A stretch of DNA of 64,000 nt from the NCBI RefSeq assembly GCF_000226095.1, contig NC_016476.1, forward strand, positions 930,001 through 994,000, in the 5' to 3' direction. Numbering within the stretch: position 1 is the first letter of the stretch; every line of letters starts with the position of its first letter. This document shows, in pieces, positions 15,893 through 45,600 of the stretch. Source of the DNA: Thermothelomyces thermophilus ATCC 42464 (lineage: Eukaryota; Ascomycota; Sordariomycetes; Sordariales; Chaetomiaceae). Made by a program: the position numbers and the translations under genes. The notes under the pieces are model-generated. The model was not told where the DNA came from. It searched no databases and was given only the letters and a program-made list of their open reading frames with translations.

Positions 15893-16102
15893 TGCCAAAC
15901 GTAGTAATGAGCTTCCGGGAGCGTTGAAAGCAGTCTATAGTAGGTGGCCGTACGAAGGAAAGAGTGCCTTGTTAAACTATCTACAAAGGAGACAAAACGA
16001 CTGATATTTATAGACAAAGGAACTGGCCAATGCGTTGAACAGCCTTATATAGCTGTAGCATGTATGTGGCTAATACTCTTAGAAGCTCCACAGCTTCTGA
16101 CA
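15893..16102 (-). repeat. Copia-A 5' LTR
   Basis: About 210 bp with TG..CA ends. On the minus strand it starts TGTCAGAAGC and ends next to the primer-binding site. It matches the Copia-B LTR (32027-32239) over its whole length. It forms the left border of the gene island. Its outer half keeps more CA/TG dinucleotides than the Copia-B copy, so RIP is weaker here. Confidence 0.85.
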
Positions 16103-25616: not shown

Positions 25617-28136
25617 TCACCGCGCCTCCCACTTCTGGCCCCCCAAGGCGATCAGCTGGTTGAACAGCTCATCCCGCATCGGCACCGCCGTGATCTTGTA
25701 CTCGTCCCCGGCGACGGTCCGGATGACCAGTCCGTCCTTGACCTCGGTGCCCATCGACCACCCCACCACCAGCTTCGCCTTCCAGGCGTAGCCGCCAATC
25801 TTGAGCATCTCGACCACCTCCGCCGCCGGCACGCTCCACATCGGCCGCAGCTCCTCCTCCTCCCCGACGGTGCCGGTGCCGCCACCGGCCGCACCACCCC
25901 GCCCTGCCGCCGACGACGTCGTCGTCGTCGTCGATGGCGACGACTTGCCAAACGCCACCACCGGCACCGTCGCCCCGGACGCAGAGACGTACACCCGGCC
26001 CCGGTGCCCTTCCCACCGCGCCTCGAACTCGGCCGGGCCCGCGCCCGCGGGCACCGGACCGTGACCCTCCTGCTGCTGACCGCCGCCGGCCCCGCTTCGC
26101 CTGCCGGGGGCCAGCACGCCGAGCCGGTGGTCGCGCGCCCCCGCGCTGCCCGGCGTCTTGGCGCGCAGCTTGTCGGCCCCGACGGCCGTCTTGACCGCCC
26201 CGCGGGTGGTGCCCCCCTTGAAGAAGCCGAGGATCCGGTGGCCGTGGCCGTGGCCGTGGCCGTGCTTGGATGTTGTTGCCCCGCTTCCGGCGCTGTCCCT
26301 GTCGCGGTCGCGGTCCCGGTCCCGTTCACCCCGGACGGCGGCGTGGTTCTCCGGCCCCGTCGTGTTGTTGGTCTCGTGCGGGATCGTCGACGGATCGTAG
26401 GTGATGGCCGAGTCGAGCTCGGCCGTGTTCGAGACGCCCAGCGGGGAATCCCCGCCCGCCTCCGCGCGCAGGTCGCCATCTGACAAGGCCGCCGGCTTGT
26501 CCGGAGGCGGGGGTGTGACGCGCGGCGACGGCGGCGGCGGCGGCGGCAGGGGCGCGTGGTTGACCTCGCCGTGGCGGAGGAGGGTCAGCGTCAGTTGGGC
26601 GTTGGTCGGGACGCCGTTGAGGATCGTGCTGAGGATTGGGGAAGACGAATTAGTTTCGTGTCGCGGCAGATTGGGTAATTAGCAGGCTCGGAGAGGAGTG
26701 GATTGGTTTTGCTTACTTGCGCGGCTGCAGCAGCTCCGGCCAGTTCGGAATCGTCCGGTTCAGCCAGTCGAGGCAGCGAGAGATGACAGGGTCACCGAAG
26801 AAGACGGCCCCTGCTAGGAATGAGAGCAATTTCAGCACAAGGTAAGGAGTCAGGAAGAGGGAGCTGCCCAGTAGAAGGGGGAGGAGGATGGCGACCAGGC
26901 GGAGACGGTAAACTTCGGAGGGAAATAGGGGGATGGGGGAGAGGGCGCTGGGGTTACAACGGTCAGTCTATTTTATCAGCCCGTGCGTGGGAAAACTGCG
27001 CGACAAAATCCAAATCAAGTCAAAAGCAGGAGACGCACTTGGCTAGGCGCTCCCAGGTGTCTGCCACGGTGCCGATCGTGTGCATGACCGGACGCATCTT
27101 GTTCCACATGACCTTTTCCATCGGGACCTTGGTTTTGTCGTGCTTGGCCCCCGTCTCTTCACCCCCCGCTTTGTCCCTGGCGTCAGCCGTTTTGGTGGCC
27201 AGAGCCGTCGGATCAAGGGCCGTGTCTGCGCCCGGGTCCTCGTCCGAATACGCAGCGCTGCTCATGGCAACGGAAGCGATGCCACTAACAAAGTTGCTCG
27301 CTTCCTGCTCGACTGCTTCTCCTTTGTGATTCTCGAGCGCTCCCGTCGCGCTGTCGTGGCTGCCGAGGACGCCGGCCTTGGGCTTCTGGATGCCGCCAGT
27401 CTTGCTGTCGACGAGAGCCAGGGGGGCGGGGGGGAATAACAGTTCGCGAGCCCTAGGGAAGCCAATCAAAGCCAACACGACGACTGAGAGCAGCGGCATG
27501 AGGAAGTCAAAGGCCCATGCGACGAAATATGCTCCCGCAAGGTATGTGGTGCGTCTCCTCTCTTGCCAAGATCGGAGCCGCGCGACGTGCTTGGACGCCG
27601 CCAGCAGACCGACGCCAACGGTCATGTAGAGGCGCTCGATATTTGCGCGCAACTTATCTGGCGAGAACTCTTCGTCTTCTGCAATGTTCAAGTCGAGGCC
27701 ACCAGGTGGCGGGTAAGGAGTGGCTTTGACATTGTAGATTTGCTAGTTCATGTATATCAGTTAGGATGTTCCTTTGTCACTTCCGCAGGGCTTCGTCGAA
27801 GAAACACATAATTAGTACCTTATTGAACCGCCGAACCAGAAGCCATAGCTCCTCGTTAGTCATACCCTCAATTGGGGATGCTGCGATGTTTTCCTTCTTC
27901 TCGTTCCATCCCAGATCCACCACACTACTGTTGTTATTATTTGGTTGGGCTGGCCCCTGGGCCCCCCGCGTCTCGGCGGCCAGAGCATGGGAGAGGGTTG
28001 GGCCATCCCCAGCCGCATCGGTATGCGTCTGACTATCGGGTGTGGCGGTGGTAGGATCGGTGGCCGGTATTGGGAGGAGGTCCTTCATCACCGCTCCCGC
28101 GCCCTTCCCCTCAGTGGCAGGATTGTTTGATTGCAT
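25617..28136 (-). CDS. DUF3292-family membrane protein (4 exons)
   Basis: Proposed exons on the minus strand: 28136-27819, 27742-27039, 26947-26717, 26628-25617. All introns are GT-AG, giving 2265 nt (754 aa). I recognise the fungal DUF3292 layout: ELWLLVRRFNKQIYNVKA across intron 1, then DEEFSPDKLRANIERLYMTV. A hydrophobic hairpin follows (YLAGAYFVAWAFDFLMPLLS) and then QEASNFVSGIASVA. A second membrane hairpin fills exon 3. Exon 4 has a Pro/Ser-rich linker, an Arg-Asp repeat (four RD units), a His-Gly repeat, a Thr run, and a C-terminal globular part (PMWSVPAAEVVEMLKIGG) that may be PH/GRAM-like. Function is unknown for the family; membrane topology suggests an organelle membrane protein. 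No RIP is seen. Confidence 0.82.
26227..26262 (-). repeat. GTGGCC minisatellite coding for a His-Gly run
   Basis: Four to five tandem GTGGCC/GTGGCCGT units inside exon 4 of the DUF3292 gene, read on the minus strand as alternating His and Gly. A CGT/CGA trinucleotide run at about 25911-25935 in the same exon encodes a Thr-rich tract. Both are likely length-polymorphic. Confidence 0.7.
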
Positions 28137-28911
28137 GTTGAATTCGGATGTGCTAAATCCCGGTAATTGATTTTCCTCCGTTAGATATCAGAGGCGATCA
28201 TTTGCCTCTATGAATGTTGGATTGTAATGAGCCGCGTTAAGGTAAGCTTTTAAGATCAAATGGTTGACGTTGACTGGAAAGCAACGATGACATCAACGAT
28301 TCCAATCCTGGCTGTTCTAGAGCAGTGACGCAGCGTTGCCCAAATTGCCGCTACGAGGTGACTAAAAGGTTTGGCCGGCGAGTTGATATCAAATCAATAC
28401 ACCTTATTACCCTCCTACACTGAGCCTCCTGGTCTTACTACTGATCCCCGTGGCCTAAACACAATTTTGGGGGCCTTTTGAGATGCTTCCATTTAAATGT
28501 TCTCTGCATTGCGTTGATCCGCCGGCATCGGCTAAAGATACCAGCCAATGCTTTGGTTAATTATCGCTGCTGAATCGTACGTGATACACGCATTATATCG
28601 TCGAGTCGGTCCATTAAGATTGCTTTAAGTTTACCCTGCCGAAGCGGAAAGGCTATCCGCAAGACACGGAGCTTTTCGGCCGGGCTAAGCCCCACCACAC
28701 CGACCGAGAAACCGGCACCGGTTAATACTCCACACGGCCCCACGCAGCACCGGCTGCAAAGTGGTGACGCCATGAGGTAATGACGACATTGGTACGGATT
28801 ACAGGGTTCAATACCAAAAGGTAAGATGATAACTTTTGTTGACTGTACTGTACTTTCAACATACACTAAGCTTCAACGAAACCTATTTCGAGCCCGCCTT
28901 ACATCGCCAAT
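28137..28911. promoter_or_regulatory. Shared divergent promoter region
   Basis: A 775-bp region between the divergent starts of the DUF3292 gene and the isomerase gene. No clear TATA box. A frame at 28561-28866 (minus) is Cys-rich but unrecognisable, and I do not call it. The sequence is not RIP-mutated. Confidence 0.5.
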
Positions 28912-30132
28912 ATGAACGGCAACGACCGAGTGCTTCAACTGTCTGGGAGCTGCAATAACTATCCCTGGGGAAAGCAGGGGCAGCAATCACTCGCGGCTCG
29001 GCTCTGCAAAACGACAGCCAAGGATTTCGAAATCAAGGATGACGAATACTACTCGGAAATGTGGTTCGGGGACTACCCTGACTACCCGGCCCGCGTCCTG
29101 GAGACTGGCAAACCCCTGAAGGACGTGCTCAACGAGAATAAGGAGAGGCTTCTAGGAAAGAAGGTCATCGATGATGAACTAGACGGCCAACTCCCTTTTC
29201 TGCCAAAGATCCTCTCCATCGCCAAGGCTCTCCCGCTACAAATACATCCGAACAAAGACCTCGCCGCCAAGCTGCACGCCAAGGATCCTGATAACTTCAC
29301 CGACCCCAACCATAAGCCCGAAATCGCCGTCGCCCTCTCCAGGTTCGAGGTCTTTGCTGGATTCAAGCCGCTGTCCGAGATCGAGCCGCTCTTCCGACTC
29401 CCCGCCCTCCGCCCCTTTGTCCCCGACGGCACGACGCAATGGACCGACAAGACACTGCGCGAGGTAACCCGCAACATCCTCAAAGGCGGCGATGCCACGG
29501 TAAAACGCGTCCAGGATGGCCTGTTGTCCACCGCAAAGTCAGACCTCGGCTCGGCCGGGTACATCCTCGACCTGCTCCCACGTCTGCAGAGACAATACGG
29601 GCCGCAAGACCCGGGCTCGCTGGTGGCGCTCGCGTGCATGAACTTTCTGGTCCTGCAGCCCGGAGACGCGCTCTTCATCCCCGCCGACGGCATCCACGCC
29701 TACCTAAGCGGGGACATTGTCGAGTGCATGGCGCGCAGCAACAACGTGCTCAACTCGGGCTTCTGCCCGCCCGCCGAGCGGAACAGCATCGACCTCTTCG
29801 CCGACACGCTCACCTTCCGGGCGCACTCGCGCGACGACGTCGTGCTCCCGAGCGCCGAGACGCCCAGGAGCAGGACCGGCAAGACGCGCGTCTACCGGCC
29901 GCCCGTGAGCGAGTTCGACATGCTGAGGGCCGAGCTCGCGGCCGGAGAGGCAGACGAGATCTCGGAGAGCGACGGGCCGGGGGTCTTGATTGTCACCAAG
30001 GGCAGCGGCAGGATGGAGGCCGATGGAAAGAAGTTCGAACTGGCGGAAGGGGCCATCTACTTTGTCGCCCCAAGGGTGAGGGTGAGATGGGAGACCGACA
30101 CGGGGATGGAGGTGTACATGGCGGTTGTTTAA
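28912..30132 (+). CDS. Mannose-6-phosphate isomerase type I paralogue
   Basis: Single-exon, 406 aa. Type I phosphomannose isomerases interconvert mannose-6-phosphate and fructose-6-phosphate and feed GDP-mannose synthesis in the cytosol. Landmarks: YPWGKQG near the N-terminus, zinc ligands Q110 and H112 in LPLQIHPNK, E137 in DPNHKPE and H262 in IPADGIHAYL. The signature region continues YLSGDIVECMARSNNVLNSGF (264-284). In the usual enzymes this last block reads SDN-V-V/I-R-A-G; here Asn277 replaces Asp and Asn281 replaces the Arg. The protein is also a little shorter than the main enzyme. It is probably a second, diverged paralogue; activity is plausible but uncertain. The ATG at 28912 is the first in frame and starts the conserved region. 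Confidence 0.9.
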   Translation: MNGNDRVLQLSGSCNNYPWGKQGQQSLAARLCKTTAKDFEIKDDEYYSEMWFGDYPDYPARVLETGKPLKDVLNENKERLLGKKVIDDELDGQLPFLPKILSIAKALPLQIHPNKDLAAKLHAKDPDNFTDPNHKPEIAVALSRFEVFAGFKPLSEIEPLFRLPALRPFVPDGTTQWTDKTLREVTRNILKGGDATVKRVQDGLLSTAKSDLGSAGYILDLLPRLQRQYGPQDPGSLVALACMNFLVLQPGDALFIPADGIHAYLSGDIVECMARSNNVLNSGFCPPAERNSIDLFADTLTFRAHSRDDVVLPSAETPRSRTGKTRVYRPPVSEFDMLRAELAAGEADEISESDGPGVLIVTKGSGRMEADGKKFELAEGAIYFVAPRVRVRWETDTGMEVYMAVV

Positions 30133-30556
30133 GTCCTTCAAAGTCAGCATTTAGCGGTAATATACGAAGATGGTTGATTTCCGCATCCATCCATCCACAA
30201 GTATTGATTGAAAGTTTAAACGACCTCAATGAAACCTAAAGGTCCATCGAGGCAACATCGCGGATAAATCATCTATCTGTAGTACGAATACCTATCTGAA
30301 ACTGGGAGCTCGTAATCCAATTGGACGTGACCCTCTTGGCCCGGCTATTTAATTACTGTGTAAATCAAACACTATTAATTACAACAGTTTCGACTATTAA
30401 CGGCTTCGATCCAGCTCTTGAGGCAAGCTGTCAATTTTTTTTGACTTTATCAATTTTGTAACTGTGACATTTCAAATCTTTTTACGACGCCCTCATGACT
30501 TGTATCTGACGAGCCGCCATTATTTGCATCGTAACTAAGGTATTAATTAATTAGCC
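30133..30556. other. Intergenic region with dispersed repeat
   Basis: About 420 bp between the isomerase stop and the SET gene start. It begins with the dispersed repeat at 30138-30200. The rest is AT-rich, with a T8 run near 30437 and TTAATTAATTAG just before the SET start. No gene is seen. Confidence 0.6.
30138..30200 (+). repeat. Dispersed 60-bp repeat, copy 2
   Basis: Starts six bases after the isomerase stop codon, so it would lie in its 3' UTR. It matches the minus strand of 23201-23259 (shared TACGAAGAT and CGCATCCATCCATCCACA blocks). Confidence 0.65.
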
Positions 30557-31619
30557 ATGCGAACCTCACCGAGGACCATGATTCTCACGTCTCTCGCCCT
30601 CCTCCAACTCGCCCTCTCCTCGCCTCACTCATCAACCCCACCCTTACCACCCGCCCAGTGCGCCCCCGGGAACTTCCCTTCACCCTTCAACCCCAACCTC
30701 ACAACCTGCCTGGACAGCGCCATCCTCCTCCCCAGCGCCTGGCACCCGTGGACGCACCGCCCGCACTGCGTCGAGGCCGCGGATAATAGCCCCTGGTGCG
30801 TCTTCACCCGCGCCGCTCTCCACAGCAGCATCAGCGTGGTGACGACGCCGGACGAGGCCGCGGGCGCGCTGAACCCGCTCCGGCACGTGCTCGACGACGA
30901 CGACGACGACGACAATAACGACGACGATAACACCGCTGACTCGCCGAAGGGACGGCGGCGGCCGTACGAGGTGCGGGACGTCCCCGGCAAGGGCAAGGGC
31001 GCGGTGGCGACGCGGCGGATCGGCAAGGGGACGGCGGTGCTGGCAGACCACGCGGCCGTCCTGGCGGCGGTCGAGTACCCGGCGGACGTGATGCGCGAGG
31101 AGGTGCAGGAGCTGCTGGCGGTGGCGGCGGCGCAGCTGCGGGATCCCGGGGCGGTGGAGGGTCTGGCGAGGAGGGGGGCGCGGCAGGGGAGAAAGGACTA
31201 CGGCGGCGACGGGGAGGTTGTGGAGATGAGCGAGATGGAGGACATCATGCTGACAAACACGTTTGGGGTGACGGTGGGAGGAAAGGAATACATGGCGCTG
31301 TTTCCCAACTTGGCGGTGAGTTTTTCTTTTGGTTGTTCTGTCTCTAATTACTGGTTCTGGATAGATGGGAAGAGTTCTGGCGAAGGGAAAGGGTGCTGAC
31401 TGACGACTGACCAGAGGTTTAACCACGCTTGTAAACCAAAGTAAGCAAACGACAACAGGGTGTGCAGGGAGGTGATGTACTGACCCTTCCAGTGCATTCA
31501 TCAACTTCTCCCAAAGGACGCTAGCCATGACTGTCTGGGCGGCTCGTGATATTGAGCCTGGAGAAGTGCGAAACTGCAAAAGCGACGCCGCAATTGCTGC
31601 TTCCAGCAATTGCACCTAA
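30557..31619 (+). pseudogene. SET-domain protein gene truncated inside the SET domain by an LTR element
   Basis: Exons 30557-31315, 31415-31440 and 31493 onward, with GT-AG introns. The N-terminus has a signal-peptide-like hydrophobic stretch (MILTSLALLQLALSS). Next comes a Cys-containing region seen in secreted-type fungal SET proteins, a poly-Asp run, then the SET domain: PYEVRDVPGKGKGAVATRRI, a long helical insert, and RFNHACKPN across intron 2 (the NHxCxPN cofactor/zinc core). The last host-derived residues are ARDIEPGE. The next bases, from 31567, are a 76-bp terminal repeat of a small retroelement. Translation then runs 17 residues into that repeat and stops at 31617-31619. The catalytic Tyr segment (ISY type) and any post-SET part are missing. 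Methyltransferase activity is therefore very unlikely. Confidence 0.85.
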
Positions 31620-31642
31620 GTTAGGCCGTAGGTATTCTGACA
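31567..31642 (-). repeat. TRIM 3' LTR (76 bp)
   Basis: Plus strand TGCGAAACTG ... TTCTGACA. It contains GCAAAAGCGAC, so a minus-strand transcript would meet a TTTT run about 20 nt before the element's end. It retains CA/TG and is nearly free of RIP, unlike its partner. Confidence 0.85.
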
Positions 31643-31652
31643 CACCCCCCAG
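31643..31652 (-). promoter_or_regulatory. TRIM polypurine tract
   Basis: The minus strand reads CTGGGGGGTG directly before the 3' LTR, the correct place for plus-strand DNA priming. The Copia-B tract at 32240-32250 is almost the same (CTAGGGGGTA). Confidence 0.7.
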
Positions 31653-31838
31653 ATCGAGGAAAGAGGCTTGACTCGATCTGCCTCAATAGTACTCCTTTTT
31701 CGACCTACATTGTACTCCCTTTGGATGTGCCGCAGCCTTGCACTCCTTCTTAGGGACGGTACCCACTTAGCACTCTACCTTTTAGAATATACCCCCGGCT
31801 TAGTATTCCTAAAGTGCTTAATCTTTGGTCTCGGAGTC

Positions 31839-31917
31839 TGATTCGAACCTAGGGCCTCTCTCGTGTAATCCTAGCTTATATGTGCTAAGGAATTGTAGTG
31901 CTCAGACCGCTACGCTA
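31839..31917 (-). promoter_or_regulatory. tRNA-like Pol III A and B boxes inside the TRIM
   Basis: On the minus strand TAGCGTAGCGGT (31917-31906) fits the A-box consensus TRGCNNAGYNGG. GGTTCGAATCA (31849-31839) fits the B-box GGTTCGANNCC. Spacing of about 57 bp is in the functional range. A GGTCTCGGAGTCTG-type segment follows, but the acceptor and T stems do not pair well, so this is a tRNA-derived relic or SINE-like head and not a tRNA gene. Confidence 0.6.
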
Positions 31918-31920
31918 ACC

Positions 31921-31931
31921 GGGCTTATAAC
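31921..31931 (-). promoter_or_regulatory. TRIM primer-binding site (half-tRNA-iMet type)
   Basis: The minus strand GTTATAAGCCC follows the 5' LTR without a gap. It complements the initiator tRNA-Met anticodon arm (GGGCTCATAAC) with one RIP-type difference. It shares its first ten bases with the Copia-A site at 15882-15892. Confidence 0.7.
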
Positions 31932-32007
31932 TACGAAACTGTAAAAGCGACATTGTAATTGCTGCTTCTAGCAATTGTACCTAAGTTAGGCCGTAGGTAT
32001 TCTGATA
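31932..32007 (-). repeat. TRIM 5' LTR (76 bp)
   Basis: Same length and order as 31567-31642. Differences are almost all C to T or G to A (TGCGAAACTGC to TACGAAACTGT, CTGACA to CTGATA), showing RIP on this copy. Confidence 0.85.
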
Positions 32008-32026
32008 TCCTGTTATTAGGTACCAC

Positions 32027-32239
32027 TACCGAACGTAGTGATAAGCTTCTAGGAGTATTAAAAGCAGTATCTGTAGTAGGTGGCTATATAAAGGAAAGAG
32101 TGCCTTGTTGAAACTATCTATAAAGGAGATAAAAAGAGTGGTATTTATAGATAAAGGGACTAGCCAATGCGTTAAACAGCCTTATATAGCTATAGTATAT
32201 ATATAGCTAATACTCTTAGAAGCTCTATAGCTTCTGACA
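32027..32239 (-). repeat. Copia-B 3' LTR
   Basis: About 213 bp. On the minus strand it starts TGTCAGAAGC next to a polypurine tract at 32240-32250 (CTAGGGGGTA). It is collinear with the Copia-A 5' LTR. The left end is set at TACCGAACG by comparison with TGCCAAACG in Copia-A. The 19 bp at 32008-32026 between it and the TRIM are of unknown origin. Confidence 0.8.
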
Positions 32240-34317
32240 TACCCCCTAGTTAAAGGCGATAGTCGTTTAATTACGCTTTGTAGTAATACTATTCTTAGTG
32301 TTATATCCTTTGTTACTCTTACCTTAATAGCTCCTTTAGGGGCCTACCTTCCGTATTCGGAAGTCTAAAAGAGTCAAGTATAGTAGAGCGATTTCTTTAA
32401 AGCTATGGATTAAATATAGCTATTATAACTATAATAGTAATAGTATTACTAGTTTTAATCGTAATAATAATAATAGGATAATGCCTCTTACGCTTAAATT
32501 AACGGATAACTCGTTAGGTACGCCTGCCGCGAATACTACAACTGCTAGCAGGTCGACTCCTACTCCTATAACACCTTGAAAGCGTAAGCGTGCTAAAGCT
32601 TCTAGACTGTAAGTGTTCCTGTTATCTCTATTCGATTGATTTTATTGCCGGTTTTGCAGTTTTCTAGCGATTCTAGCGATTTAAGTAAGTTCGTATAGTT
32701 TAGCTTCTTCTGGTTAATTTGATAGCGACTCTGTCATAGTTTCTAGCGCTCTGCTAGTCGCGTCTGGATCGTTTAAGCTAACTAAATATAGCGATATCGA
32801 AGCTAGTAAGCTTTATAAGGTGCCCTATGGAATGTATATATGGTCGGCTCTAATAGGACGTTCTTTTGGCAAATATTATAATCATTCCGGTACTAGCTCC
32901 TACTACTATTATTATACCTATAGTTCCTATAAGTATAAGGATATATATACTAATTGCCTATATATCTAATAGCTCTTACGATACTTATATTAACTATAAT
33001 GGTAACTTTACTTCTTACGTTAAGTTAGTAAAGGATTTAATAAAGGCTTTACTAGATAGAGCTAAGGCTTTTATAAGTCCTTGGATCCTGAACCTCTACC
33101 TCTAATATATAGGTAAATCACTAATAGATATATATAAGATCTTAAGAAGTTATATATAGTTCTTTGGAATAACCTTAAACATGCTAGTATAGACGATATA
33201 GAGGAGTACGAGCTTGATAAGGCTGAACTCGCGTGTTTTACAAAGATTGCCTGCTCTATATATAATATCTTCTACTAGTTAGGCAAGATTAAGGAAGCTT
33301 ATAATGCTTACATTAGCACGTCTAATGATACGTTAGGCGCTATATTGTTACCTAGCTAGGATAAAGGCAAGGGCAAGGCTATTGATCCTAGTAATAGCTA
33401 CTAATAGTAGATAGAGAGTATTAGGCGGTATTTTATTTAACAAATTTAACTTATCTTCTACCCTCTAGTTATATAAGCCTGTAACTAATATCTTAAAGAT
33501 TAAAGAGAGCCCTTTAGCGCTTAAAGGCTTATTAGCTAAGTCATTTAGTAAGCCTATTTACTAATATCTAACTAATTAGTGGATATATAGCTTTAAATAT
33601 TCCTTTCGCTACTTCCTAGCGTAACTATATATTATAGATATCTATATACTATAAGCAAGTATCAATACGTTTGTTCTTGGCCATTACTAGTGTAATTATT
33701 TACTAATTGTCATAGTAGTTATTCTAGGGTTCCCTAAGCTTAAGATCGATATCTATAAATAGCCTTTTAAGTACTATAGCCTCTCTTGCTATAAGGGAGA
33801 GCATTAGAAGTTCTACTTTAGTACTTAATATTATAATAGTATCCTAGTATAATACCTTTTACGTAATAGGACCTCCGAATAGGAAGAAGATATATCCCTA
33901 CGACGAATACCATATATCTAGATTATCTACATACAAAGCGTCCCTAGCAATTATAAACGTCGGACTTTCTAGCACTTACTTGCCTCTATATTAGATTGAC
34001 AGGCAAGAGCTCCTAAATAGATATCTTATTACTTGCTACACTTCTAACAAGTAGTCTAGTCCTAGGTTAGTTAGGTATTAAGAAAGTACTAACTAGGTAT
34101 ATATAATATCTAGATATAGTATAACTATATAGTATAGGATTAATCTAACAAGCTCCTAATACTCTTTAATCTATATACTAATAGCGCTCCCTTCGAACTT
34201 CTTGAGTTCTTTATAGCTTAAGGGAGTTAGCTTATATATACTAGGCACATCTAGCCTATATCTTCTTACTACCTTTCTAATATATTAGTTATAGACTAAC
34301 TATATCCTATATATAAG
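32240..34317 (-). mobile_element. Copia-B, part 1: polypurine tract, 3' region, RNase H
   Basis: Matches window positions 1-1925 (Copia-A) from 32339 on. It contains the RNase H relic (about 33740-34000, minus strand) and the start of the RT C-terminal part. It is interrupted at 34317 by Gypsy-1, with TSD ATAAG at 34313-34317 and 41941-41945. RIP-type stops occur throughout. Confidence 0.88.
32866..33440 (+). pseudogene. Plus-strand reading frame in the Copia-B 3' region
   Basis: Counterpart of the frame at 427-1045. The first 79 codons are open (hydrophobic start, then YVKLVKDLIKALLD). After one frame shift the charged part (IEEYELDKAEL) and the DKGKGKAIDPSNS tail follow. Product unknown. 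Confidence 0.4.
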
Positions 34318-34775
34318 TGTGACAAACCTAACTTAGACTTCTTCTAAAAGGGTTCAGACAAAGGTAGATTAAGCAGGACAAGTAGGCAGGTCGTCTAAGG
34401 GATTCGGTGAAGCCAAAGGGTTTATAACAACACTAGAGTTATCTCTCACAGTAGTCAACAACGATGCTTGGTATAAGTACTATAATTATAAGGGTTGCTA
34501 TCACTAGTGAACTCCTAGAGTCTACTATAACAAGTGACTATTTATATGTATATATACTTCTATCGGTCGCTTATAGTCCCCTTCTATCCTGTCCTTAGAT
34601 CGCCTTCGGTAGCTAGCTATCCTCTGCTATCTTTCCCTTTTTGGCAATTGTTCGCCTATAGTAGCCCGCGCTTCCTAGCGATCCTATGTCAGCCTCGCTT
34701 CGTGCCCTTCTTGATTGGTGGCTCATTTAGCCTGCTATACCCTACCGGGTCGCGGTATATGGTTGGCTTATAATA
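34318..34775 (-). repeat. Gypsy-1 3' LTR
   Basis: 458 bp; the plus strand starts TGTGACAAACC and ends GGCTTATAATA, followed by the polypurine complement TAATGCCCCCTCTTT. This copy keeps many CA/TG sites and is much less mutated than the 5' LTR at 41483-41940. Confidence 0.9.
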
Positions 34776-37700
34776 TAATGCCCCCTCTTTAGGGCTTTTG
34801 ACCTGAAAGCTTCTTATAACTTGTCTTAAGTACTACTAACACCCCCTTTTCCTAGTAGGTAACGTCCTTCTTCTGCTAACTTCCTTTTGCTATAGCTAAT
34901 TATATTCCTAGGAATCGTTGTAATCTTAAACGTAAACGATACACTATTACGATTAAGATTAAGCAAGAGGGTTACGAAGTTACTATACCTTATAAGCATT
35001 ATTGGAATATAAAGCTATAAAAGTATTATATAATAATAAAGGCTTTAAATAAGTATTAAAACTATATTTATATAAGTAAGAAGTATAGTAGTCTAAACGT
35101 TATAGATACCTATAAGTTCCTTATTATTTTTCTTTATAATCTTAGATTACTAACTATCTTAGTCCTTTTAAATTTATTAGAGTAGGAGAAGGTTTTAAGG
35201 GAGATTACTAAGACCAAGGCATTACTTACTTAGACGTTAAGCCGTTTAAGTCAATTACGTCGTTTATAGTAATCCCTATACGATCGTAGTACCGAAGTTT
35301 TTCGTCGTGGCGTAGCTTGTCTAGAGGAAGAGGAAGAGCTAGATACTCCTCTGCCGATGTCGGAGACGTAGACCCTTGTAGGTCAGGCTTAGGCGTTAGG
35401 TGCTTTTGACGTGCTTGATTAGGAGTTAATTAGGTTAGATCCTAGTCTTAATTCTAGCAGGTTCCCCTCTTTTTCCATTAGGGAATAGGCTTTAGAGCTA
35501 GTTTTTATAGCTAGTTAGGATTCTATTAGTAGAATTACTTTAGTTTCTTAGAGCAATTTAGGTTCTTAATAGGTTCTTATAAGTTATCTTCTAATCTAAA
35601 ATCAAGCTATTTAACTAGGTACTATAGTTCTCTATTAATAATATATAAATCTAGAATCTCTTTAATGTCCTATTCTTCCTCTTCGTCCTTTGCTTTAATA
35701 TATATAGCAACCTTAGCGTTCTTTAGTACTAGTTCGAGAAGTAAAATATAAAAAACATCTATCTATAGTCATATAGATAATAGTAACGATAGTTAGTAGT
35801 TAGATGTCGAAATTCGTTCTTTGATAACGAAGGGTCTAACCTTCTTAAAGTCTAGCTTCGTGCTTAGTCGTTTGGTTTATAAGTTTCGTACGATTAGGTA
35901 GACTTCGTCTCCCCTCTCTAGGTAAGGTCCCTTAAGCCTATGTTTGTTATAATAGTTCTTTATTCTAGTCTTAATAAACTCGAGTTCCTTTTTAAGCTTT
36001 TTATATAGTATATATATTTGTTTTACTTTGACTATTGCTCTTGGCACTATAACCTCTAGTCCTTACTTAAGGTCTACTTTATATCTGTAGTTCGCGAAGA
36101 ACGGTATAACTTTGGTTATTTCTGTTAGTATTATATTGTAAGCGAGTTATACTATTAGTAATAGCATGACCTAGTTATCTTACTAGTAGTTAATATAGGA
36201 ATGGAGGTACTACTTGATAACTTAGTTTAGTTACTCTATTTGTCTATTAGTCCATAGGTAATATGCCGTTAATAGCTTACTATTAACGTCTAATTGTTAT
36301 ATTAACGCTTACTAGAACTTTAACGCGAACTTAGTATCTCTATCGGTAATCTATTCTTGTAGCTAAGCATATACTAATATAACTTACTAATAGATTATAT
36401 CTACTAACTGTTTTGCTATCTAGGACTCTTTATAAGGAAAGAAGTATGCCTATTTAGTTAGGTAATCTACTATAGTAAGAATACTATCATAGGTCACTCC
36501 TATAGTTATATCCTTAGATTCTAGTAGCTTTGTAATAAAGTCTATTGTAACTAAACTCTATAGTTTGTTAGCTATTAGCAGTGGCTAAAGTAGCCTATAC
36601 GGCTTATATTATGCCGTTTTACTTCGATTACAAATATCATAGTTCTATATAACTTCCTTAACTTATACCGTTAACTATAGAAAGTCGTAGTATTTCCTAA
36701 CTTATACGATAGTCTTTGTAACTCCTTTATATCCTCCGAGTTTCGACTTATAGAGTTCCCAAATCATTCGTAGCTATTGATCCCTGTTGTAGATATATAC
36801 TTTGCCTCGATACTAGAGTTTTCTATCTCTTTCTTCTACTCCGTTAGGTACTAGTAGTCCGGGTGTTACTTGATACTATATCTCGTTAATCCTTTCTTCT
36901 CGAAAGATTATATAACACTCTAGGAACGAGTCAAATAGATTATCTTCTACGGATATCTACGTTTCGTGATATAGCGTTCCGTCTATTCGTTCCTTGAACA
37001 ATAGTAGTATTGTTTCCGTTTGTCCTTCCGTATAATCCGTTCATCGGCTTAAGATATCCGCTTATACATTTTCTTTGCCCTTCTTATAGCGGATCTCGAA
37101 GTTAAATTCCACGAGGAATTCTACCTATTATATTTGTCGTCTATTAAGCTCCTTTGTCATTATAAAGTATTGTAAGTTCTTATAATCTGTATATACTTGT
37201 ACTAGTTTAATCGTACCGCTAAGGTATAATTACCATTCTTTAAAAGCTTTGACAATCGCGAGTAGTTCCTTATTATAGATCGGATAATTAAGACGTAGTC
37301 TATCGAGCTTCTTTAAAAAGAAGGCTATAGGATGTAGCTTTCCTTGTCCGTCTCGTTATCCTAATTATCCTCTAATGGCGTAATCTAAAGTATCTGTTTC
37401 TATCTTAAATAGCTTTTTAGGATCTGGTAGTACTAGTACCAGATCTTTAGTAATGGAGTCGTAGATCTATATAAATGCTTACTTATATTATTCTTTCTAT
37501 CAGAATTTAGCGTTCTTTCTAGTAAATTTATATAAAGGTCATATAATCGCTCTAAAGTTCCTAATAAACATCCGGTAGAAGTTTGCAAATCCAATAAAGC
37601 TTTATACTTCCGTAATTAACATTAGTCATAGCCAATTCTTAATAGCTTTAACGTTTAAAGGTTCTATCCGGATTTGTCCTAGGGATATCTTATATCCTGA

Positions 37701-40700
37701 AAACACCGTTTTCCTGACGTAGAATTTGCTCTTTTCCTCATTAACTAATAGTTTATATATATATAGCGTGTCTAATACTACTTTTACGTACTTCCGGTGT
37801 TCGTCTATTGTCTTAGAGGAAATAAGTATATTATCGGGATAATATACCGTAAATTTGTCAAGAAAGGGTTAGATAGCTTAATTAATTAGGGCTTAGAACG
37901 TTACTAGCGCGTTTGTAAGTCCGAATGGCATGACGAGGTACTCGTAGTAGCCATAGGGTGTCCTAAAGGCCGTTTTCCATTCGTCGCCTTCTTTGATCCG
38001 TATATAGTTATAGGCCGATAGCAAGTTAAGATACGTAAAATATTAGGCTCCTATTAACTAATCTTAGAGCTATAAGATTAGTAGTAATAGGTATCGGTTT
38101 TTTACGGTCTATTTGTTAAGCTACTAATGGTCGATATATAACTATAGCTTTCTATCTTTCTTAGGTATAAATAAGATTAAGTAGCCTGTTAGCGATATCG
38201 ACAGATAGATATATCCTCTTTGAAGGTTCTCCTCCAAATATCACTTAAGTTCTTCGTTCTAAGTCTAGCTTATATAATAGATCTTAAAGAACTTTAGTTA
38301 TACTCCTTCCTTAAGCTTAATCTTATAATCCTATAGGCTATATTCCAATAGTCCTTCTAGATACTTCAGTTTAAATGCTAGGTATCCTTTATATTCTTTT
38401 GGTATTTCCCTAGTCTTGTCTCGTCTCTCGGTTTTCTAATAGTATATGAACTTGGTTCTATCTATAGCGATGCTAGCGATTTCTTCTATCTTAACCTACT
38501 ACTCCCATTGTAATGCTCCGCATTCGTTAATAGAGAGAATAGCTATTGGCGGTTTAGCTCGTTCCTCCTATCGTGATATTGATATTATTATACCGCCTCT
38601 TCTAAAGTCTATAGTAGTCTATCTGCCACTGTCTATCTCTTGCGGTAGATCCGTAGAATATGCCTTCCCCTAAGCATTATCCGCTCGCGATCCTTATACG
38701 CTCCCTATCTCGCTAGTTAAATATAACTCCGTTTAGGGTTATAGGTAGCTACTATTCTTCTAGCTAATGTCTAGGTCGTAATCTTCATACTATAGTAACC
38801 CTAATATTATATCTTTATCATTACCTATATCTATAATGCTAAATATAACTACTATGGTCTTTCCTATTATGGTAATATTAATTAGTTTAGTTTCCTTATA
38901 TACCTATTACGTCGGAAATGGCCCTTTGACTATACTATACTTCCGCTTCATTCTCTAGGGTATCTATAGCTAATTTATAAGCGTTAGCGAAATTAGGTTT
39001 ATCTCTACTCTACTATCTACTAGTACGAGCATTTCATACCGTTTCTATTATACTATTATCCATAGTCACTTGTCTTGCTACCATCGTCTAAAAATTATAG
39101 CGATTTCCTATATTTCTACCAGGAGGTCTTAATATAGTGGTCTCTTATGCTAGTTCCTCCTATACTACGCTACTACTCGCTGCTACACAGGCGTTAATGG
39201 TTTCCAGGCCCCTCGAAGGGCCCTAACCCATTTCCCAGGTCAGTGCTAACCTCTTCGGTTATTTAGCTAATAGTGGCTTCGTTAATTATATTCATTTCTA
39301 TAAGCCATTAAATGCTTACAGCTTTCTACTATTAAGTCTGTTTTACTTTTTATCATATATACTATAGCTTTATCTAAAGCTCTCGAATTCGCGATTTCTT
39401 TTCGTCTATATAATAGAGGTAATCGTTACTCTAGTACGAGTCCTATATGTCTCGTCCTATTCCGTACTACCTAGGCCAGGCTCATTTTAGAACTATTATA
39501 ATGCCTTCTAGATCATAGGCTTTGATCTTCTAGAGCAATTCGGCTGCTCTATTTCCTATATTATAGACCTATTCTATAGGACGTAAGCTTCCATCCTTAT
39601 TTCCTTGTCGGGTCAGCTAGTGATTATTTTCGAATTTGTTATAGAAGTAGTATCGGCATCTATATACTATATACTAGAACTAGGGCACTTATATATATGC
39701 CTTGTATCGAGGATATAGTTATATAGCGTTACCTAGGAGGTATTAGAATTCTTTCCTAAATCCTTCCTATTATATATAGACTATAGGTACCCTAATGCTA
39801 TAGTAAGAGTATTTCTTCTAGTAGCTCTCCTATATATACTCGTCTTTTCCGCGATTTATACATATAAACTAGTATTCTAGGTTCTATATGTCGTTACTAA
39901 GTTACTAATCGTCAAGGTATTTAGTATAGCTATCAGGCCTATTATATATTATAGGCTATCCTCCTTTAATAGTTTCTATAATATATTAGAGTTCCCTCGT
40001 CTTGTCCCTCATCTTATCGCTCTACTAGATAAGTCAAATCAAGCGTCTATCCCATTTACATAGTTCTATATTAAGCTAGAAAACTTCATTATAGTACTAT
40101 TTAATTTGTTCCTAGAGGAATAAAACATTAGGTCTAGATCTTTCGATTCCTTAGGTATCGGTTATTTACAATCTATCCCGCCTCTATATAACCGTAAAAC
40201 CCTACTACCTTAAGGCTAGGAGAATCGAAATTAGCAGTATATATTCTCCTACCATATCCCATTTAGCAAGACCTGTCTCTAGGTCTATAGTAACTAGTTC
40301 GAAGTACGGTGCTTATTCGTCTTTACCGTTGCTATCATATTCAAAACTGTCTATATCACTGCCCCTATCTTTATAGCTTATAGCCGCTACTTCGATAACG
40401 TTCTTGGTAGTTTCATTAATAGCCGTAATTTCCTTTCTAGGGACTGTCTTTTACTCTTTCTTCGGGCTTCGATATTCTCGCTTATAGTGCCCTTTCTTTC
40501 TATAGTTATAGTAGGTAATATTAGACTTGTCTTTGGTCGTCTTCTTCTAGTCTTACTTCTACATTATATCTATATCTATAGCTTTAGGGTATATTCTATA
40601 TAAGGTACTAATATACGTTCGCTTTTTCTTATCGTTAGCCTTAACTATAGTTCTATTTATTTGACCTTATCTCTACTACTCTTATATATAGAGTCGATTA

Positions 40701-41482
40701 TTGATTCTAATAGCCTATATAATATATTTGTCTAGAGTCTTAGGCCGATTATACTTATATAGCTTGTCTTTAACCTCTTCCTTTAAGCTATTATAGAATA
40801 GTTATATTAATGCTTTATTATTAAGCTAAGACTTAAGTATATCCTATCTAAACTATATAGTATAGGAGGCTACTAACTTAGTCTATCAGAGATTAGCAAG
40901 TCTTTCTTATATATAAATCTTCTCGTCTTTATCATTAAAAACCTTCTAAAGCTCTTCTTCGAAACGATCGTAAGATCAAAAGACTACTTATATGAATATA
41001 TCTTAGTCATCTTTATCTTCCTTAGTAAGATAGTTGTTCTATATAGGCTTAAACTATCTAAGTACCTTGCCCTCTAGTCTTATAGCTATATAGAGGACTT
41101 TAGCTTTGTCGTCCGGAAACTTGTCGTCATTGAGCCAGAAGTAGGATCAGAGGTTTATCAGGAATCCTATAAGATCTTCCTTAATTCCTCTATATTTGCT
41201 AGGTAGTTCGATCTTAATATAGCTTGCTTTAGCGCCCTCGAGTCCCTTAATCTTGGCATAGGCCTCGTTAACCAATTTCTACGAGTGCTTTTTGCCGTTC
41301 TTAAGTTCCTTGATTCGAGCTTAAGCAGCCTTATCTCTCTAGTCTAACTCCTAGATTTACTAATAGAGTTAACCAAGCTAGGTAAGTAGCTATTTGGCTA
41401 TGACGTTAGTAGCTATATTAATGTCGAGGTCAAAGTTACCTCTATTCTAAACTATGATAGAACAAAGGGAGTAATAGTAATA
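34776..41482 (-). pseudogene. Gypsy-1 gag-pol relic
   Basis: On the minus strand, from high to low coordinate: gag (about 41460-40440) with zinc knuckle at about 40520-40470, the unidentified Cys/His segment (about 40440-39100), protease near 39020 where DSG has become DSR, and RT with its active site near 37846-37830 changed from YLDD to YPDN. RNase H (about 37400), integrase (about 36750-36150), the GPY-like part near 35920 and the chromodomain (about 35690-35579) follow. Stops are RIP-type. A subfamily-B tail lies at about 35560-34790. Confidence 0.82.
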
Positions 41483-41940
41483 TATGACGAACCTAACTTA
41501 GACTTCTTCTAAAAGGGTTTAGACGAAGGTAGATTAAGTAGGACAAGTAGGTAGGTCGTCTAAGGAATTTGGTAAAGCTAAAGGGTTTATAATAATACTA
41601 GAGTTATCTTTTATAGTAGTTAATAACGATACTTAGTATAAGTACTATAATTATAAGGGTTACTATTACTAGTAAACTCTTAGAGTCTACTATAACGAGT
41701 GACTATTTATATGTATATATACTTCTATTAGTCGCTTATAGTCCCTTTCTATCCTGTCCTTAGATTGCCTTTAGTAGCTAGCTATCCTCCGCTATCTTTC
41801 CCTTTTTAGCAATTGTTTGCCTATAGTAGCCCGCGCTTCCTAGTGATTCTATATCAGCCTTGCTTTATGCCCTTCTTAATTAGTGGCTCATTTAGCCTGC
41901 TATACCCTACCGGGTCGTAGTATATAGTTAGCTTATAATA
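41483..41940 (-). repeat. Gypsy-1 5' LTR
   Basis: 458 bp; the plus strand starts TATGACGAACC and ends GCTTATAATA, followed by TSD ATAAG. Exactly the same length as the other LTR, but more RIP-converted. Confidence 0.9.
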
Positions 41941-42170
41941 ATAAGTCAGTCTCGAATCACCCTAATACTAAGGAACTAACCGATATTACCTTACTTATAG
42001 ATATTATATCGAGCTTTAATTCCTTCTATTATACGCTTAGCTACTATAGCATTACTTTTATAGAAGAAGACTAAGAAGTTATTAATATAGAAGATTAGGA
42101 TGACTCGTTTATTATAGCTTAGGAAGAGGCACTTCTCTTTGCCTAATGGTTCTATACCTAGATCTAATAG
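41941..42170 (-). mobile_element. Copia-B, part 2: RT catalytic core fragment
   Basis: A 230-bp island of Copia-B between Gypsy-1 and Gypsy-2. On the minus strand it encodes the RT core. An uninterrupted frame runs from 42176 to 41991 and contains FYINNFLVFFYKS, where both catalytic Asp of YIDD have become Asn (YINN). It corresponds to about 1930-2130 in Copia-A. Confidence 0.88.
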
Positions 42171-42623
42171 TGTCACGAGCTAACTATATACTGTGACCCG
42201 GTGGAGCGCAGCAGGCCAAACGAGCCACCAATCAAGAAGGGCACAGAGCAAGGCTAACACAGGATCACTAGGGAGCGCGGGCTACTATAGGCAAATAATT
42301 GCCAAAAGAGAAAAGATAGTAGAGGATAGCTAGCTACCAAAGGCAATCCTAGGGTAGGCTAGAAAGGGACTATAAGCGACTAATGAAAATATATATATAT
42401 ATAAATAATCACTTGTTATAGTAGACTCTAGGAGTTTACTAGTAATAGTAACCTATAATCATAGTATTTATACTAAGTATCGCTAACTATTATAAGAGAT
42501 AACTCTAGTATTATTATAAACCCTTTGGCTTTACCAAATCCCTTAGACGACCTATACGCTTATCCTACTTAATTTACCTCTATCTGAACCCTTTTAGAAG
42601 AAGTCTAAGTTAGGTTTATTATA
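42171..42623 (+). repeat. Gypsy-2 5' LTR
   Basis: 453 bp, starts TGTCACGAGC. It has 28 bp at 42261-42288 that are missing from the 3' LTR; the missing piece is bounded by AGG on both sides. The TATATATATATATAAATAA stretch near 42391-42408 is a TATA-like promoter candidate. Confidence 0.9.
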
Positions 42624-42639
42624 CATTGCTATTACTCCC

Positions 42640-45600
42640 TTTGTTCTATTATAGTTTAGGATAAAGGTGATTTCGACCTCGACATCGATATAGCTACTAA
42701 CGTTACGGCCGAATAGCTGCTTACCTAGCTTAGTTAACTCTAGTAGCAGATCTAGGAGTTAGACTAGAGAGATAAGGCTGCTTAAGCTCGAATCAAAGAA
42801 CTCGAGAACGGCAAAAAGCACTTATAGAAGCTAGTTAACAAGGCCTACGCCAAAATCAAGGCACTCGAGGGCGCTAAAGCGAGCTATATTAAGATCGAAC
42901 TACCTAGCAAATATAGAGGAACTAAGGAGGATCTTGTAGGATTCCTGACGAATCTCCGATCCTACTTCTGGCTTAATGATAACAAGTTTCTAGACGATAA
43001 AGCTAAAGTCCTCTATATAGCTATAAGATTAGAGGGTAAGGCACTTAGATAGTTTAAGCCTATATAGAATGACTATCTTATTAAGGAAGATAAAGATGAC
43101 TAAGATGTATTTACGTAGGTAGTCTTTTGATCCTATAACTAGTTTAAAGAAGAGCTTTAGAAGGTTTTTAGTGATAAAGATAAGAAGATTTATATATAAG
43201 AAAGACTTGCTAATATCTAATAGATTAAGTTAGTAGCCTCCTATGTTATATAGTTTAGATAGGACATACTTAAGTCTTAGCTTAATGACGAGGCATTAAT
43301 ATAACTGTTCTATAATAGCTTAAAGGAAAAGGTTAAAGATAAGCTATATAAGTACGATCGGCCTAAGACCCTAGATAAATATATCGTATGGGCTATTAGA
43401 ATCGATAATCGACTCTATATATAAGAGTAGTAGAAACGAGGTTAGATATATAGAACTATAGTTAAGGCTAATAATAAGAAAAAACAAGTATATGTTAGCA
43501 CCTCGTATAGGACGTATCCTAGAGCTATAGATATAGATATAATATAGAAGCAAGACAAGAAGAAGACGACTAAAGATAAGTCTAATATTACCTACTATAA
43601 CTATAAGAAGAAAGGGCACTATAAGCGAGAATATCGAAGCCCGAAGAAAGACTAGAAACTAGTCCCTAGAAAGGAAATTACGGCTATTAATAAAACTACT
43701 AAGGATATTATCGAAATAGCGGCTACGAGCTACAAAAACAGGGACAGCGACACAGACAGTCTCAGACACGATGGCGACGGAGAAGACGAACAAGTACCGT
43801 ACTCCGAACTAGTCACTATAGACCTAGAGATAGGTCTTGCTAAATAGAATATAATAAGAGAGTATATACTACTAATTTCGATTCTCCTAACCATAAGGCA
43901 GTAGGGTTTTATAGTTATCTAGAGGCAGGATAGATTGTGGACGACTAATACCTAAGGAATTGAAAGACCTAGACCTAATGTTCTATTCCTCTAGGAACAA
44001 ATCAAATGGTACCGTAACGAAGTTTTCCGGCTCGATATAGAACTATACAAACGGGATAGACGTTTGATTTGACTTACCTAGTAGAATGATAGGATAAGGG
44101 ACAAGATAAGGGAACTCCGACGTATTATAGAAACTATTAAGGGGGAATAGCCTATAATATACGATAGGCCTGATAGCTACGCTAAGTATTTTAACGATTA
44201 GTAACTTAGCTACGATATATGGAACCTAGAGTACTAGTTTATACGTACAAACCACAGAAAAGACGAACGTATATAGGAAAACTACTAGAAGAATTATTCC
44301 TACCTTAGCATTAGAGTACCTATAGTCTATATATAGTAAGAAGGATTTGGAAAAGAATTCTAATACCTTCTAGGTGACGCCATATAACTATACCTACGAC
44401 ACAAGGCATATATATAAGTGCCCTAGTTCTAGTATATATTATATAAATGCCGATATTACTTTCGTGACAAATTCGAAAATAATTACTAGCCGACCTAACA
44501 AGGAAATGAGGACAGAAGCCTCTACCTTGTAGAATAGGTCTATAATGTAGGAAATAGAGCAGCCGAATTGCTTTAGAAGATCGAAGCCTACGATCTAGAA
44601 GGCATTATAGTAGTACCAAAATAAGCCTAGCCTAGGTACTACGGAATAGGACGAGATATATAGGACTCGTACTAGAGTAACGACTACCTCTACTATACGG
44701 ACGAAAAGAAATCGTAGATCTAGAAGCTTTAGATAAAGCTATAGCACGTACGACGGAAAGTAGAACAGACCTAATGGTAGGAAGCTGCTAGCACTCAATG
44801 GCTTATAGAAATGAGCACAATCGACGAAGCTGCTATTAGCCGAATAACCGAAGAGGTTAGTACTGACCTAGGAAATGGGTCAGGGCCTTCCGAGAGGCCC
44901 GAAAACCATTAACACCTATATAGTAGAGAGTAGTAACGTAGTATAGGAGGAACTGGTATAAGAGACCACTATACTAAGACCTCCTATTAGAAATATAGGA
45001 AATCGCTATAGTCTTTAGGCAACGGCGGTAAGACAAGTAATTATAGATAATAGCATAATAGAAATAGCACGAAATGCTTATACTAGTAGATAATAGAGCA
45101 GAGATAAATCTAATTTCGCCGATACTTATAAATTAGCTATAGATATCCTAGAGAATAAAGCGGAAGTATAGTATAGTTAAAGGGCTATTTCTAATATAAT
45201 AGGTATATAGGGAGACCAAACCGATTAATATCACTATAGTAGAAAAGACTATAGTAGTCGTATTTAGTATCGTAGATATAGGTAATAATAAAGATATAAT
45301 ATTAGGGTTACTATAGTATAAAGATTACGACCTAGACATTAGCTAGAAGAATGGTAGCTACCTATAACCCTGAATAGAGTCGTATTTAACTAGCGAGATA
45401 GGGAGCGTACAAGGATCGCGAGCGGACGATACTTAGGGGAAGGTATATCCTACGGATCTACCGCAAGAGATAGATAGTAGTAGGTAGACTACTACAGACT
45501 CTAAAAGAAGCGGTATAACGATACTAATGTTACAATAGGAAGAACAAGCCGAACTGCTGATAGCTATTCTCTTCGTTAACGAATACGGAGCATTGTAACT

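Follow-up and report, generated by a model that had tools for sequence, protein, structure and literature searches.

The element described here occupies positions 31567-32007 of the window, a 64,000-nucleotide stretch of the genome of Thermothelomyces thermophilus ATCC 42464. Our analysis confirmed that these 441 bp are a real terminal-repeat retrotransposon in miniature (TRIM), i.e., a miniature long terminal repeat (LTR) element, and judging from the sequences compared it very probably represents a non-autonomous family that is mobilised in trans by a Ty1/Copia family of the same genome. The element has two LTRs and a short non-coding interior within a total of less than 1000 bp (Table 1). 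When it is read on the minus strand, the primer-binding site (PBS) abuts the 5' LTR and the polypurine tract (PPT) abuts the 3' LTR, as had been proposed in a preliminary description made from the sequence alone; the PPT GGGGGGTG together with the PBS identifies the minus strand as the sense strand. The LTRs are direct repeats of the 76 bp given in that description, but they differ at 9 of the 76 positions, and the TG..CA ends named there are intact in the lower repeat only, the upper one having TA..TA. With the lower repeat as reference, all 9 differences are G>A or C>T changes in the upper one, which is the direction of repeat-induced point mutation (RIP).

The copy searches covered the window's own genome (38,744,216 bases, 7 contigs), and the resulting counts are lower bounds, the best 40 of 42, 47 and 45 candidates having been scored. 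The 441-bp query revealed three near-complete copies, including that of the window, and one related copy belonging to another LTR subfamily. The near-complete copies outside the window are located on contig C7 at 34 kb (90% identity to the query) and on contig C6 at 3898 kb (87% identity), and the fourth copy, C7:3579 kb (locus L048), carries a nested 258-bp repeat. Three of the full copies are 439-443 bp long and the fourth measures 705 bp. The possibility that the fourth copy had captured a gene was rejected, because its extra 258 bp, at approximately L048:841-1098, proved to be a repeat that recurs in the genome at least 39 more times (87-97% identity, among the best 40 of 146 candidates). 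The paired LTRs differ at 0/75 positions in the C6 copy, 1/79 in the C7:34 kb copy and 11/69 in the fourth copy. In addition to the full copies, we detected at least 44 solo LTRs or LTR fragments, 37 with the first LTR query and 7 more with a query from the second subfamily; a third LTR query, for which all 32 candidates were scored, gave no additional solo LTRs. Where both ends are present, the solo LTRs measure 67-82 bp and fall mainly into the classes of 68-69 and 75-76 bp. Short tandem duplications were seen inside the solo LTRs L137 and L138, and a 12-bp palindromic insert in L063 and L065. Two close LTR pairs, at L052 and L063, were considered as further full elements and rejected, as every one of these LTRs has its own exact target-site duplication (TSD).

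Exact 5-bp TSDs flank three of the four full copies, the exception being the window copy, whose flanks are CAGGA and CTTCT. For the solo LTRs with both ends that were analysed by script (n = 35), the TSD was exact in 25 cases, had one mismatch in 5 and at least two mismatches in 5. One of these, L061, had been cut short by the script, and its TSD was exact once the true end was used by hand, which raised the number to 26. Among four further solo LTRs read by eye (L132, L133, L137 and L138) the TSD was exact in 3, so that overall 29 of the 39 solo LTRs with two readable ends have an exact 5-bp TSD; those lacking two readable ends (L060, L069, L134, L135 and L136) were omitted from this count. 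When the flanks of the 35 pairs were permuted 10,000 times, the mean number of exact matches was 0.72 and the maximum 6. Thus, additional copies with the same two ends and with 5-bp TSDs, which the preliminary description had named as a check of its proposal of a miniature LTR element, are present in this genome and support it. This TSD pattern corresponds to integrase-type insertion, followed most simply by recombination between the LTRs. Alternatively, the single 67-82-bp repeats could be independent small insertions, either hairpin-forming and resembling miniature inverted-repeat transposable elements or single-LTR cDNA integrations. Solo LTRs outnumber full copies by at least 44 to 4, and this, like the folding of the LTR as a 10-bp hairpin, would be in keeping with such an origin. 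However, the solo LTRs have the TG..CA ends and the 5-bp TSDs in common with the full copies, and in the latter the ends and the PPT correspond to those of Copia; we regard independent insertion as improbable.

The evidence for a Copia partner comes from both replication junctions. The PBS of the TRIM is perfectly complementary over 13 nt to nucleotides 26-38 of the initiator tRNA-Met encoded in this genome and ends in the anticodon loop; its sequence is GTTATGAGCCCGG in the copies at C6 and C7:34 kb, and the window PBS has one RIP-type mismatch. The PBS of the resident Ty1/Copia elements matches tRNA-Met over 16 nt in all three copies measured. For the 11-mer GGGCTCATAAC we read 20 loci, which comprised 4 initiator tRNA-Met genes, 8 LTR/PBS junctions of one Copia family and 8 loci that were neither; of the 4 remaining loci, 2 are in TRIM copies and 1 ends a Copia LTR match. 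At the other junction, the 14-mer GGGGTG/TGTCAGAA (the PPT plus the start of the 3' LTR) has 20 matches in the genome and its reversed control has none. Four of these matches are the TRIM copies and the other 16 are all starts of Copia LTRs, 15 of them preceded by a closely similar Copia 3' end. The PBS, the PPT and the LTR terminus are thus all shared with the resident Copia family. The fungal Copia elements named GalEa are described as lacking a PBS in ascomycetes, and FunCo1 elements as using tRNA-Lys, in the available text of PMC5445492, so that by its primer the partner seen here is neither of them.

In the cycle that we propose, TRIM RNA would be packaged by Copia Gag and the Copia reverse transcriptase would be primed at the PBS by one half of an initiator tRNA-Met molecule, after which the PPT would prime the second strand. 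Copia integrase would recognise the common LTR ends (TGTCAGAA.. and ..CA) and insert the product with a 5-bp TSD. Subsequent LTR-LTR recombination would leave mostly solo LTRs, and RIP would mutate those TRIM copies that are located beside repeats. The genomic RNA would most likely be made by RNA polymerase II (Pol II) from a promoter in the LTR.

Several observations weigh against mobilisation by Copia as set out here. The 11-mer GGGCTCATAAC is unspecific, having 24 matches in the genome compared to 9 for the reversed control. The genome contains 88 matches to RVT_2, 87 of which have internal stops, and the Copia partner therefore looks dead in this assembly. Moreover, DNA searches with the TRIM gave no Copia match; shared sequence was seen at the two junctions only, and no packaging signal was among it. 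The flanks of the solo LTRs L050, L057, L064 and L072 differ at two or more of the five bases (of the 35 analysed by script), and the window copy itself has no TSD, which may be due to ectopic recombination or to a rearrangement accompanying the Copia insertion. Finally, a Pol II promoter within the TRIM LTR of about 75 bp is an assumption: no TATA box was found in the LTRs of the four TRIM copies, and the TATA sequence TATAAATA was present in both Copia LTRs checked.

The preliminary description had also pointed out an A box and a B box in the sense direction, and both were confirmed on the same strand and in order. In each of the four full copies the pair has this arrangement, with a total of 2-3 mismatches compared to 5-6 on the opposite strand. 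The A/B score of the C6 copy, which equals that of the window copy, was reached on either strand by 12 of 2000 dinucleotide shuffles, a frequency that has to be read with the motifs having been chosen after the preliminary description had pointed to them. The further proposal that this promoter is tRNA-derived found little support. No genomic tRNA source for the box region was detected up to E 10, and Rfam gave no tRNA match up to E 10 in the four full-copy loci, where there were just 4 weak matches to unrelated families (E 2.2-6.4). At its default settings ARAGORN called no tRNA in the TRIM copies. With the threshold lowered, it made 14 calls of many types in total, among which were sense-strand tRNAs with an intron that overlie the boxes in three of the four copies (one Gly and two Arg-CCT). 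The predicted fold of the box region was no better than that of shuffled sequences (z -0.82). In the two most different copies the box stretch is identical at 82/100 positions and the next stretch at 102/120, so that nothing singles out the boxes.

These data also bear on the possibility that a tRNA-derived short interspersed element (SINE) had become flanked by a chance duplication, which the preliminary description had itself put forward as the case against a TRIM. The location of the A and B boxes near one end would suit a SINE. However, the search with the box region (E ≤ 10) returned four matches, all of them inside LTR-flanked copies, and the terminal repeat is found by itself at 44 or more sites, for the most part with TSDs. 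A SINE within a chance duplication is thus already refuted for practical purposes. A hammerhead-ribozyme element (retrozyme) was likewise considered and dropped, as Rfam yielded no family up to E 1 in window positions 31400-32200 and, in the four full-copy loci, just the weak matches to unrelated families given above.

The statement in the preliminary description that its author knew of no named fungal family like this element has to be revised in view of Helenus, which is very similar and differs in the location of the boxes. Helenus elements are fungal TRIMs that are linked to Copia and carry A/B-box tRNA-like sequence in their LTRs (Kojima 2024; PMC10886601). Their families have 5-bp TSDs and mostly anticodon-loop tRNA-Met primers, with Copia as the likely partner, and all fungal hosts in the corresponding host table (Table 1 of PMC10886601) are Basidiomycota. 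The window element resembles them, as far as the available text of that paper describes them, in being a miniature LTR element with 5-bp TSDs, solo LTRs and A/B-box sequence, and in having the PBS type found in the majority of Helenus, complementary to the anticodon loop of initiator tRNA-Met and shared with a probable Copia partner. However, the boxes of Helenus are in the LTRs, whereas those of the window element are internal, between the PBS and the PPT. In the five TRIM LTRs examined, the B-box core GGTTC was absent from both strands in every case, the best B-box match had 3 mismatches and TRGC was found in one. As the LTRs tested have no boxes, the window element is by definition not a Helenus; it would work like a Copia-driven TRIM.

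Other systems share fewer features with it. Cassandra of plants is also a small non-coding LTR element with RNA polymerase III (Pol III) promoter motifs, but its 5S-type promoter is in the LTR and provides an 18-bp repeat at the two ends of the RNA (PMC10886601), whereas the internal boxes of the window element would provide none; according to the text available from Kojima, no partner of Cassandra is known. Plant TRIMs and SMARTs have similarly tiny LTRs, a PBS, a PPT and no coding capacity, and SMARTs (292 bp) are likely driven by Copia (PMC10886601); their hosts are different, and Pol III boxes are not mentioned for SMARTs in the available text of that paper. Ty5 and Drosophila copia use the tRNA primer at the anticodon loop, i.e., half-tRNA priming (PMC10886601). 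Both are autonomous, and the comparison with the window element concerns the primer type. Within ascomycetes, TRIMs have been reported in Venturia, with no mention of tRNA-like boxes in the available text (PMC4646964); the term TRIM also occurs in the Pseudonectria genome paper (PMC6110257), and in the text available from PMC9970103 it is confined to a reference. None of the titles and abstracts retrieved describes this TRIM family for the host, its class or its phylum, in a search that had subscription journals mostly outside its range.

The internal boxes raise the question of which polymerase makes the TRIM RNA. The boxes could be a working type-2 Pol III promoter producing the RNA for retrotransposition, a reading that differs from the Pol II-based cycle in the polymerase only. 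It would account for the ordered sense-strand pair in all four copies, the small number of shuffles that reach its score and the tRNAs called over the boxes at the lowered ARAGORN threshold. It would also fit the TRIM LTR without a TATA box and the presence of A/B boxes in fungal Helenus, whose primer class and partner superfamily are the same. The positions of the signals argue against it. Pol III usually starts 12-20 nt upstream of the A box. As the A box of the C6 copy starts 15 nt past the LTR end, transcription would begin in the last LTR nucleotides or in the PBS, past the only TTTT of that LTR (element positions 61-64), and a transcript ending at the TTTT of the 3' LTR (425-428) would have no repeated R. 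The fourth copy has two T-runs in each LTR (TTTTT in the 3' LTR), and even the later one, although nearer the LTR end, is upstream of the start zone; the margin is smaller in this copy, but the conclusion is unchanged. Read-through of a four-T run would shift the end point but supply no R. In addition, the box stretch is no better conserved than its neighbour, and there is neither a match to a tRNA model nor a cloverleaf. The absence of TTTT between the A box and the 3' LTR is uninformative, since 808 of 1000 shuffles lack it as well.

Because the transcript ends would have no shared R, Pol III is doubtful as the maker of the genomic RNA, and Pol II transcription from the LTR is favoured. A Pol III transcript running from the PBS into the 3' LTR, as envisaged in the preliminary description, could on these positions not by itself give a canonical genome; the TTTT noted there in the 3' LTR is also closer to the LTR end than the approximately 20 nt stated (Table 1). 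A working Pol III promoter is accordingly rather unlikely, and the boxes are probably a relic, an accessory or a product of chance. We consider it still less probable that the template of a Copia-driven TRIM is a Pol III transcript initiated at the internal promoter downstream of the 5' LTR, with the LTR rebuilt in the absence of a repeated R, e.g., by templating from other copies or from solo-LTR transcripts.

Two potential hairpins were analysed. Conservation between the most different copies is highest next to the PPT, in a stretch (58/60 identical) that contains a 9-bp inverted repeat, found also in L039, L040 and L048. As a stable RNA fold this hairpin was rejected, because 144 of 200 shuffles folded at least as well (z 0.61), and it is possible that the conserved stretch is a packaging signal or a signal for plus-strand priming. 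The fold of the LTR hairpin was reached by 8 of 200 shuffles (z -1.96). The other common LTR subfamily has a stem of about 8 bp with a different loop, and the hairpin is broken in some copies.

The window copy is separated by 19 bp from the LTR of a Copia element. At sites that are identical in the C6 and C7:34 kb copies, the window copy has 22 private changes, of which 20 are RIP-type; 18 of these 20 lie within 150 nt of its Copia-side end. The simplest reading of this distribution is that RIP has spilled over from the adjacent Copia copy onto the TRIM. The GC content is 28-42% at window positions 32000-46000 and 45-67% at 28000-32000, and the low-GC stretch is a RIP-type repeat island starting at the TRIM/Copia junction. 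Elsewhere in the window, a further Copia copy has its LTR at 15893-16102 (minus strand), with a half-tRNA-Met PBS altered by RIP after it, and there is a separate RVT_2 match at 1852-2517 (minus strand). About 1.4 kb from the TRIM, an open reading frame at 28912-30132 (plus strand) encodes a type I phosphomannose isomerase catalytic domain (PF20511, E 5.7e-37).

Table 1. Positions of the TRIM, its parts and the adjoining Copia LTR in the window.
Feature	Position	Strand	Remarks
Whole TRIM element	31567-32007	-	441 bp; no matching TSD at this copy
5' LTR (sense)	31932-32007	-	RIP-mutated, ends TA..TA
PBS GTTATAAGCCCGG	31919-31931	-	complement of initiator tRNA-Met nt 26-38 (putative half-tRNA primer)
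A-box match TAGCGTAGCGGT	31906-31917	-	1 mismatch to TRGYNNARNNGG
B-box match GGTTCGAATCA	31839-31849	-	1 mismatch to GGTTCGANTCC
Inverted repeat beside PPT	31650-31680	-	nearly invariant in the 4 full copies
PPT GGGGGGTG	31643-31650	-	adjoins the 3' LTR; GGGGTG/TGTCAGAA common to Copia junctions
3' LTR (sense)	31567-31642	-	TG..CA intact
LTR hairpin	31590-31613	-	10-bp stem in the window copy
TTTT in 3' LTR	31578-31581	-	11 nt before the LTR end
LTR of RIP-mutated Ty1/Copia element	32027-32239	-	PPT at about 32240-32250; proposed partner family

The present family extends miniature elements that are Helenus-like and primed by half of tRNA-Met beyond the Basidiomycota listed as fungal hosts by Kojima (2024) to an ascomycete, and within one genome it links a TRIM, through both replication junctions, to a candidate autonomous partner. 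With their internal location, the boxes offer a clean test of whether the Pol III motifs of TRIMs are real promoters. RIP requires a minimum repeat length, and our results suggest that in a RIP-active genome elements that are too short for RIP can outlast the partner that they parasitise.
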